Shown: positions 6,850-9,211 of the stretch, piece by piece
Position numbering within the stretch: position 1 is the stretch's first letter
Layout: each line of letters starts with the position of its first letter
Source: an uncultured Alphaproteobacteria bacterium
GTDB lineage: Bacteria > Pseudomonadota > Alphaproteobacteria > JAPOUT01 > G958296285
Direction of reading: 5' to 3'
DNA length: 64,000 nt
Assembly: GCA_958296285.1 (NCBI GenBank)
Contig: OY282459.1
Coordinates: forward strand, 1,408,762-1,472,761
Made by a program: the position numbers and the translations under genes
Notes under the pieces: model-generated
What the model was told of the DNA's origin: nothing
The model's input: only the letters and a program-made list of their open reading frames with translations
Database searches by the model: none

Positions 6850-6872
6850 GGCGTGATTCTTGAATCCACGCC
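6850..6872. promoter_or_regulatory. near-perfect palindrome and 12-bp tandem repeat upstream of the nuclease
   Basis: GGCGTGATTCTT occurs twice in direct tandem at 6838-6849 and 6850-6861. The second copy is the left arm of an inverted repeat: GGCGTGATTC, loop TT, GAATCCACGCC, with one extra C in the right arm. The palindrome covers the proposed -35 element, so it could be an operator. It could equally be a remnant of the hairpin at an IS200/IS605-type element end. Function is inferred only from position and symmetry. Confidence 0.45.
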
Positions 6873-6919: not shown

Positions 6920-8113
6920 ATGGAATTGACTAACAAAAGGCGACTCTATCCGACAAAGGCGCAGGAGCGCGCCTTATTCTCCCATGCGGATCATTCCAAG
7001 CATCTATGGAATGAATTTGTGATGGAAGGAACGGAACGCTATCAGGTGGGCAAGGGGTTTTTCAATGATGCGGAGATGAATTCTCGCCTGACGGAACTGC
7101 GAGCCGACCACGCTTATTACGCGGAAATGCCAATCAAAGCGCAGCGCGGGGTCATCGCCAAACTCTATCGCGCCCTCACGCATCCCAAGAACCGCCTTCC
7201 TTGCGTGAAGGATAAAAAAGACCGCTCCTGCTCTATCATCTATAGGGAGTTTGGGAAATGGAATGGCAAGACTGTCCGCCTTCCGAAAGTCGGAAAGGTG
7301 AGGTGGCGGGGGCGCGAACTGCCTGCCAAACTTGCGAGCGAGATCAAAGTCTTTCGCGCCAAGAATGGCAATTGGTATGGCTGCGTTTCTTATAAAATCC
7401 CAGAGACGAAGCCCAACGCATCAGGCGAGATTGTCGGCGTGGATCTGAACGCCGACTGTCTCGCGCTTTCCAATGGCAAGAAGCACCTCGTCTCACAGAT
7501 GAAGAATCTTTGTTGGCTTGTCAGCAAGCGCAATCGCATTCTCGCTCGGCGCGAGAAGGGGAGCGGGCGTTGGCGGAAGATGCGCCGCCTCATAGCGCGG
7601 ACGCATGACAGAATCGCGCGCAAGAGAGACGCTTTCCTTCATCAAACCGCAGGCAAAATTCTCGCGGTCGCGGACGGTGTTTGCATTGAGAATTTGATGG
7701 TGAAGAATCAGACTCGCAAAGGCAAAGGCAGCCGAAAGCGAGGAATGAATCGCGTGATTCTGAACGCCGCTTTTGGCAAAACGCGAAGGCTTTTGGAATA
7801 TAAAGCCAAGATCGCGGGCGTGCCTGTTTTCGTGGCGGACACCTTCTTTCCGTCAAGCAAGATTTGCTTTCATTGCGGAAAGAAAAATCCGAATCTTGGA
7901 GCGGAGAAACGTTGGACGTGTCCTCATTGTCATAGGACTCTTGATCGCGATTTCAACGCCGCTCTAAATCTCGCTCGTGAAGGGGCGAGGATTGCGTCTG
8001 GGTTGGGCGCGAAAGGCGCGTGGAGCGCGTGTAAGTCGGCGGCGAGCCTAAACCTCGCTGTCGCGGTGCGTGATGAAGCGCGAAGTATTCTGACTCCTCA
8101 GGGGGTTGTGTGA
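6920..8113 (+). CDS. compact TnpB-like RuvC nuclease, candidate miniature Cas12 (type V-U-like) effector
   Basis: This 397-residue protein belongs to the TnpB/Cas12 superfamily of RNA-guided nucleases. The N-terminus has the OrfB opening RLYPTKAQERAL (residues 8-19). RuvC-I is IVGVDLNAD (Asp175), RuvC-II is CIENLM (Glu257), and RuvC-III is LDRDFNAALNL (Asp342/Asp344). A four-cysteine zinc finger lies between them (Cys316, Cys319, Cys334, Cys337). All catalytic and zinc positions are intact, so it looks functional. It is far smaller than Cas12a/b and near the lower limit of Cas12f. No tnpA, cas1 or cas2 is adjacent. A CRISPR array starts 5 nt after the stop, on the same strand. The last 46 residues lie beyond RuvC-III, and their codons include an anti-repeat. 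A plain IS605 tnpB is the alternative, but the array argues against it. Confidence 0.88.
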   Translation: MELTNKRRLYPTKAQERALFSHADHSKHLWNEFVMEGTERYQVGKGFFNDAEMNSRLTELRADHAYYAEMPIKAQRGVIAKLYRALTHPKNRLPCVKDKKDRSCSIIYREFGKWNGKTVRLPKVGKVRWRGRELPAKLASEIKVFRAKNGNWYGCVSYKIPETKPNASGEIVGVDLNADCLALSNGKKHLVSQMKNLCWLVSKRNRILARREKGSGRWRKMRRLIARTHDRIARKRDAFLHQTAGKILAVADGVCIENLMVKNQTRKGKGSRKRGMNRVILNAAFGKTRRLLEYKAKIAGVPVFVADTFFPSSKICFHCGKKNPNLGAEKRWTCPHCHRTLDRDFNAALNLAREGARIASGLGAKGAWSACKSAASLNLAVAVRDEARSILTPQGVV

Positions 8114-8118
8114 AGTCG
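8030..8118 (+). ncRNA. putative guide-RNA scaffold (tracrRNA / omega-RNA-like) within the 3' end of the nuclease gene
   Basis: Bases 8090-8104 (CTGACTCCTCAGGGG, codons 391-395) are complementary to CCCCTGTGGAGTCAG inside every intact repeat. 14 of 15 pairs are Watson-Crick, with one T-T mismatch. In a read-through transcript this strand would fold back onto repeat 1 (8127-8141) with a 22-nt loop. For later repeats it could act in trans as a tracrRNA. Upstream, GCGAG (8042-8046) pairs with CTCGC (8054-8058). AAGTCGGC occurs at 8033-8040 and again at 8113-8120, running into repeat 1. TnpB omega-RNAs are known to overlap the tnpB 3' end in the same way. The exact RNA ends are unknown. Confidence 0.6.
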
Positions 8119-8616
8119 GCTTTCGTCCCCTGTGGAGTCAGCGATACGAATCCCCATGAAGTCTATGCATTGGACAAAGCGGCAGCTTTCGTCCCCTGTG
8201 GAGTCAGCGATACGAATCCCAGACCTAGAATCCCAAAGGAAGTGAAAGAGGCTTTCGTCCCCTGTGGAGTCAGCGATACGAATCCCAACGCAGATTGGCT
8301 CAATCGCGGGCTTGAGGCTTTCGTCCCCTGTGGAGTCAGCGATACGAATCCCTAGAAGCGCCGAAGATCGTCAGAGATTCCGGCTTTCGTCCCCTGTGGA
8401 GTCAGCGATACGAATCCCCAAGACACGCGAGCAGCATCGCCGAACAAAGCTTTCGTCCCCTGTGGAGTCAGCGATACGAATCCCGTCGGATAATAGAGGA
8501 ACGCCGATTGTTGAGCTTTCGTCCCCTGTGGAGTCAGCGATACGAATCCCGTCAATGACCGTGTGCGCCGCGACCATCTCGCTTTCGCCCCCTGTGGAGT
8601 CAGCGATAGGAATTCC
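8119..8616 (+). CRISPR. CRISPR array: eight 36-bp repeats, seven 30-bp spacers
   Basis: Repeats start at 8119, 8185, 8251, 8317, 8383, 8449, 8515 and 8581, an exact 66-bp period. The repeat begins GCTTTCGTCCCC and ends GATACGAATCCC. Repeats 1-7 are identical. Repeat 8 has three changes (T to C at 8588, C to G at 8609, C to T at 8614), marking the old, distal end. All seven spacers are exactly 30 bp and unrelated to each other. By eye no spacer matches elsewhere in the window. The anti-repeat match to the 5' half of the repeat supports transcription in the same direction as the nuclease, with guide 3' of repeat as in type V. No leader is present: only 5 nt separate the array from the stop codon. 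Confidence 0.96.
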
Positions 8617-8719
8617 TTCTCTCGCAGGGTCTAGCGCCTGTCGGAAAAGCGCCCTATAAGACCAAAGAGATCCCACGCCAAAAGCGCGAACCCCCGAAAA
8701 GGGCAGCAGGAGAGGCAAT

Positions 8720-9211
8720 GTGCCGTTTGACGAAAGAACTTTCCGCGACGCCCTAGGACATTTCCCAACAGGAGTCGCCATCATCACCGCCATGCGCGAA
8801 AATGACGAAGCGATCGGCATGACGGCGAACTCCTTCACTTCAGTCTCGCTGTCGCCGCCTCTAATCTTATGGTGCCTCGGCGAGGATTCCGAAAATTACG
8901 ATTTTTTCCGAAAATCGCCGATCTTCGGCGTCAATATCCTGACCCGCGCGCAGCAGGCGCTCTCCGAGCGATGCGCCGTCCCCGGACAGCACGCGCTGAC
9001 AGAAAAGGAAGTCTTTGCCTTCGCCTTCCCGCATCATAAAAAGACGCATCGCGTTCCGTTTTTATCGCATTCGGCGGCGTCCTTCGCCTGCTCGCGCGAG
9101 GAGGCTTGGGAAGCGGGGGATCATGTCGTGATGATGGGGCGCGTCCACGCTTTTGAACTGCGCGGCGGACAGCCGCTCCTTTTTCATCGGGGGGCGTATC
9201 ATGAACTCTGA
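8720..9211 (+). CDS. flavin reductase-like (FMN-binding) protein
   Basis: This 163-residue protein belongs to the flavin reductase family that supplies reduced FMN to two-component monooxygenases. Typical elements are FRDALGHFPTGVAIITA at the start, GMTANSFTSVSLSPPLILWCL, FGVNILT, and the final GDHVVMMGRVHAFE followed by LLFHRGAYHEL. The start is a GTG preceded by an AGGAGAGG ribosome-binding site. No oxygenase partner is adjacent. exbB follows 12 nt later, so transcription may continue into it. Confidence 0.87.
   Translation: MPFDERTFRDALGHFPTGVAIITAMRENDEAIGMTANSFTSVSLSPPLILWCLGEDSENYDFFRKSPIFGVNILTRAQQALSERCAVPGQHALTEKEVFAFAFPHHKKTHRVPFLSHSAASFACSREEAWEAGDHVVMMGRVHAFELRGGQPLLFHRGAYHEL

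Follow-up and report, generated by a model that had tools for sequence, protein, structure and literature searches.

We report a CRISPR array that starts 5 bp past the stop codon of a TnpB gene whose tail carries an anti-repeat, and we therefore interpret the locus as probably a miniature type V (V-U-like) CRISPR system derived from TnpB, in which the omegaRNA is split. It lies in a 64,000-nucleotide stretch of DNA (the window) from a single-contig alphaproteobacterial genome of 1.733 Mb that is 93.5% complete. The features that carry this interpretation are read in the sequence itself: the array, the effector with its motifs, the anti-repeat, a type II-C remnant elsewhere in the genome, and a second genome in which a TnpB gene and an array are arranged in the same way (Table 1 and below).

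Table 1. Features of the TnpB-array locus, in window coordinates
Feature	Position	Strand	Basis or remark
TnpB-family RNA-guided nuclease / miniature Cas12-like effector, 397 aa	6920..8113	+	NF040570, Pfam, phmmer, motifs
Predicted omegaRNA/tracrRNA scaffold overlapping the ORF 3' end	7989..8118	+	Fold z; geometry by analogy with ISDra2 omegaRNA (PMC10097598)
Anti-repeat in the final ORF codons, candidate terminal-stem 5' arm	8085..8105	+	20 bp with repeat 8126-8147
Spacer 1	8155..8184	+	No match in phages, plasmids, IMG/VR (20-nt seed)
Spacer 2	8221..8250	+	No match in phages, plasmids, IMG/VR (20-nt seed)
Spacer 3	8287..8316	+	No match in phages, plasmids, IMG/VR (20-nt seed)
Spacer 4	8353..8382	+	No match in phages, plasmids, IMG/VR (20-nt seed)
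Spacer 5	8419..8448	+	One IMG/VR contig, 20/20 then 2/10, judged chance
Spacer 6	8485..8514	+	No match in phages, plasmids, IMG/VR (20-nt seed)
Spacer 7	8551..8580	+	No match beyond chance in phages, plasmids
Degenerate terminal repeat	8581..8616	+	3 mismatches; marks the old end

The effector gene and its adjoining array

The protein encoded next to the array (417 aa if translation starts at the alternative upstream TTG at 6860) belongs to the guided_TnpB family: it scores 193.5 bits against the NF040570 model, above the curated cut-off of 100, retains the RuvC D/E/D residues (GVDLN, IENL, DRDFNAA) and carries a C4 (CxxC/CxxC) zinc finger (CFHC/CPHC), with Pfam matches to Cas12f1-like_TNB, OrfB_IS605 and HTH_OrfB. 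Among the best solved structures in a phmmer comparison is ISDra2 TnpB (8bf8), which resembles it in size (408 aa) and domains but is distant in sequence (E 2e-31); an AlphaFold model computed without an alignment reached a pLDDT of 34 and was unusable. Cas12f and Cas12u4 (subtypes V-F and V-U4) share the combination of RuvC and zinc finger, with PADLOC scores of 150 and 149 bits, respectively, but the TnpB model scores higher and the Cas12f2 and c2c8 models fall far under their cut-offs; with Cas12f2 at 60 bits against a cut-off of 450 and the PADLOC Cas12f matches mostly partial, the protein does not fall within subtype V-F. At E < 1e-5 the genome holds no other TnpB, and we found neither a transposase ORF beside the gene nor the multiple copies that would mark an IS200/IS605 or IS607 transposon, and no mobile-element genes flanking the locus. 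Searches of phages, plasmids and ~400 sampled genomes from each of the class and the phylum gave no relative exceeding ~31% identity along the protein, and a search for close relatives in the genome and viral collections returned only zinc-finger fragments.

The array itself (8119-8616, + strand) consists of eight 36-bp repeats (GCTTTCGTCCCCTGTGGAGTCAGCGATACGAATCCC; starts at 8119, 8185, 8251, 8317, 8383, 8449, 8515 and 8581) and seven 30-bp spacers with an exact 66-bp period. Repeats 1-7 are identical and the eighth is degenerate, which marks the gene-distal end as the old one and the gene-proximal end as the insertion (leader) side. Identical repeats, mutually unrelated spacers of constant length and a degenerate distal repeat are the hallmarks of a CRISPR array, and a 66-bp period sustained over eight copies is beyond chance. 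An earlier note on this DNA had located the seven 30-bp spacers, at coordinates that we confirm exactly, and had correctly recognized a CRISPR array, without mention of the adjoining TnpB gene or of the anti-repeat in its tail, the two features that identify the system. The repeat has no copy elsewhere in the genome and no match in IMG/VR. Because 66 bp correspond to 22 codons, spurious ORFs run through the array (8264-8659 on the + strand and 8371-8838 on the - strand), and gene callers may annotate false proteins across it. Every repeat also contains CCTGTGGAG (8129-8137 in the first), a string found in the tails, that is the omegaRNA region, of many ordinary tnpB genes; its presence here could be ancestry or chance.

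Searches for the origin of the spacers were negative. None of the seven has a match beyond chance among 50,697 phage and 72,556 plasmid records, and the 20-nt seeds of spacers 1-6 returned from IMG/VR only the contig matched by spacer 5, which we rejected as a protospacer as the match breaks after 20 nt; no protospacer from which a shared TAM or PAM might be read was thus found in the phages and plasmids or, for six spacers, in IMG/VR. The expectation of the earlier note that spacer origin could reveal whether phages, plasmids or transposons are targeted thus found no match to build on, and its observation of no evident self-match held, the best matches in the own genome (~18/19 nt, E ~0.3) being at chance level. 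A role in regulation or in competition between mobile elements, rather than in phage defence, would agree with the absence of phage matches, the small array and the lack of adaptation genes; yet the catalytic residues of the TnpB are intact and no spacer matches the own genome, so that no regulatory target is visible, and we regard such a role as very unlikely.

The gene tail, the repeat and a putative split omegaRNA

The anti-repeat (GTATTCTGACTCCTCAGGGGG) can pair with repeat bases 8-29 over 20 bp, in a hairpin with a z score of -3.8. Since a duplex-energy scan proved uninformative in GC-rich sequence, a pairing score was used instead: the anti-repeat scores 42, compared with 28 +/- 4 in shuffled upstream sequence (300 shuffles, maximum 43), and exceeds all 210 other window segments (maximum 40). 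This amounts to moderate significance, at about 1 in 100 to 1 in 300 and in one genome, for a candidate tracrRNA-type anti-repeat near the array. A search for a matching anti-repeat in the rest of the genome gave a 20/21 match at position 465,936, which lies inside an apparent protein-coding sequence and was judged to be chance, and Rfam returned no match. The region 7950-8184 folds with a z score of -3.6, and GGATT, which occurs once in the gene tail (7989-7993), might form a pseudoknot with the AATCC that every repeat carries at its guide-proximal end, a putative and weak assignment.

The resulting anatomy places the 5' arm of the stem in the gene tail, the stop codon in the loop, and the 3' arm plus seven guide-proximal bases (GAATCCC) in the repeat. 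Ordinary TnpBs (from Thermobispora, Alicyclobacillus and Rhizobium) show a strong hairpin at or just past the stop codon, followed after ~10 nt by the expected guide, and the terminal hairpin of the window locus has this same topology of a hairpin straddling or at the stop codon. The ISDra2 omegaRNA likewise overlaps the 3' end of its gene and presents a terminal stem, a few bases and then the guide; the window locus differs in that the 3' arm of this stem recurs, within the repeats of a CRISPR array. ISDra2 omegaRNA is a natural single guide, with crRNA-like and tracrRNA-like parts joined by a short loop, and tracrRNA/crRNA pairs have been proposed to arise by the splitting of such an RNA (PMC10097598).

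We therefore propose the following scheme, in which RNA processing, DNA cutting, the role in defence and the source of spacers are all inferred. Guides for the TnpB-sized effector would come from the array, with the omegaRNA scaffold still residing in the 3' end of the effector gene and the terminal stem split between the last codons and the repeat. From the gene tail through repeat 1 to spacer 1, the RNA would be a single uninterrupted omegaRNA; the crRNAs of the following repeats would base-pair with the gene tail in trans in a tracrRNA-like manner. The complex would cut DNA at spacer matches flanked by a short 5' motif (TAM). New spacers would have entered at the gene side, supplied in trans by a type II-C Cas1-Cas2.

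Alternatively, the array could be the orphan of another CRISPR system, such as one of a lost II-C Cas9, that sits by chance beside an ordinary tnpB and is not used by it. The genome does contain the remains of a type II module, and tnpB is a common gene, but the window repeat does not resemble the II-C repeat found in this genome, the array follows the stop codon almost immediately, the anti-repeat lies inside the tnpB tail, mobile tnpB copies are absent from the rest of the genome, and the same layout recurs with a different TnpB in a second genome, all of which makes a chance juxtaposition unlikely.

A second array-linked TnpB and the supply of spacers

The search for further cases covered 59 related genomes at E 1e-20, with one other protein passing. 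In G037, another alphaproteobacterium, a CRISPR array lies directly downstream of the TnpB gene (L014) and comprises seven repeats, six identical 36-bp copies (GTTCGTCCGCCCCCGGAAGCGGCGACTTGGGTGGAC) and a degenerate distal one, with a period of 66 and spacers of 30 bp, one of 31. The tnpB frame stays open into this array (L014:950-2664, - strand), and the protein could end in several SSAPGSGDLGG copies. About 33 other TnpB loci scanned in the same way have no array within 1.2-1.5 kb, and G143 holds four TnpB copies (L016, L017, L019 and L021) that have the same match score and cluster with IS607-type TnpBs. The window and G037 proteins are 26% identical; in the tree the latter joins a well-supported clade of transposon-type TnpBs (100/99) and the former forms a long lone branch. 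Common ancestry of the two array-linked TnpBs is not supported, though not firmly rejected (AU test, p 0.08; 0.34 without the phage row), so that independent capture is the favoured but unproven reading.

No significant anti-repeat was found in G037, where an 8-bp candidate is present. Despite the different clades of their TnpBs, the two arrays have GTCG|G in common where leader and repeat meet and TTCGTCC-CC...GGA...GCGA within the repeat (window 8114-8145; first repeat of L014, - strand), with a shuffle p of 0.02 in one of 12 tests. Spacer 3 of the G037 array agrees at 26/30 positions with a small gene of Rhizobium phage RHEph10, with the same amino acids (IILDADGK), and at 24/30 with a homologous phage gene (L078:601-632 and L079:601-628), this small gene being conserved in Rhizobium phages; with BLAST E values of 0.1-0.4, the match is only a weak lead to a target.

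The window genome retains a decayed II-C module (L012:6837-7856, G000:C1:1072836-1073855) with a truncated cas1, an intact cas2 and two 41-nt repeats with a period of 66, between ORFs resembling a GHKL-type ATPase and a DNA methyltransferase. Its Cas1 is a C-terminal type II fragment (TIGR03639, 137-277 of 278 positions), neither a complete Cas1 nor a Cas9 was found in the genome, and the cell thus lacks the complete Cas1-Cas2 expected for functional adaptive immunity. G037 carries an apparently intact II-C system, with Cas9, Cas1, Cas2 and a two-repeat array of period 66, as well as a system that we read from gene order as I-G-like, with a fused Cas4-Cas1 and an array period of 72-75. The G037 II-C array (L059:6509-6610) holds a single spacer and the TnpB array six. 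Both TnpB arrays share the II-C register of 66 bp and not the I-G one, from which we infer that II-C Cas1-Cas2 may have fed both in trans, on the strength of a correlation in two genomes; a period of 66 is common to II-C arrays, so the match may be coincidence, and the TnpB repeats show no similarity to the II-C repeats. The earlier note was right to take the constant 30-bp spacer as a sign of a measured acquisition step, and the II-C remnant and the G037 II-C array have the matching 66-bp period. The note was also right that all repeats but the last are identical, but its suggestion of a young array is not supported, nor is active acquisition, in a genome with a truncated Cas1 and no Cas9; because the II-C adaptation module is now broken in the host, the array is probably frozen rather than young.

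The spacers of a genuine TnpB-CRISPR system could also have been acquired elsewhere, the whole locus having come by horizontal transfer and never been extended in this host. The GC content of the locus (0.51-0.55, compared with 0.59-0.63 in the upstream genes) hints at a horizontal origin, and the lack of a complete cas1 and of closer relatives in the class points the same way, but the II-C remnant with its 66-bp register suggests local feeding and no mobile-element genes flank the locus; we hold arrival from elsewhere to be a distinct possibility, if not the favoured one. In an empty-site comparison with three genomes of the order, the neighbours of the locus were not conserved. Returning to local feeding by II-C, we offer a broader conjecture that as a whole seems to us doubtful: that two alphaproteobacterial TnpBs of different clades each turned the 3' end of an omegaRNA into a repeat, that II-C Cas1-Cas2 filled both arrays in trans, and that the gene tail and repeat 1 of the window locus, as a continuous omegaRNA, represent an extant intermediate between omegaRNA and tracrRNA/crRNA.

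Relation to known systems and significance

Subtype V-U loci are TnpB homologues of 400-600 aa beside arrays without adaptation modules (PMC6452270), and the window locus, with its TnpB-sized effector, adjoining array and no adjacent adaptation module, belongs to V-U by these features. It differs in the distance of the protein from any relative found and in an anti-repeat that lies in the last codons of the effector and is contiguous with repeat 1. Such captures are already known, with about 50 independent events inferred for TnpB (PMC12669027), and the one in the window may be among them. The idea of a split omegaRNA, as in the window locus, is reportedly also found in the work on TranC (transposon-CRISPR intermediates). 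LaTranC, from the PDB match list, matches the window protein only in the RuvC/zinc-finger part (E 2e-15) and differs in length, with chains of 478-575 residues.

The route from transposon nucleases to CRISPR effectors is an open question, and the window locus looks like a transposon nuclease on its way to a CRISPR immune system, with steps of that route legible in one place: a TnpB-sized enzyme, a scaffold RNA within the gene, a stem split between tail and repeat, and a lack of dedicated adaptation genes. For the spacers of early type V systems, the II-C modules that accompany both TnpB arrays point to a possible source, and G037, with its apparently intact II-C module, makes such II-C feeding directly testable.
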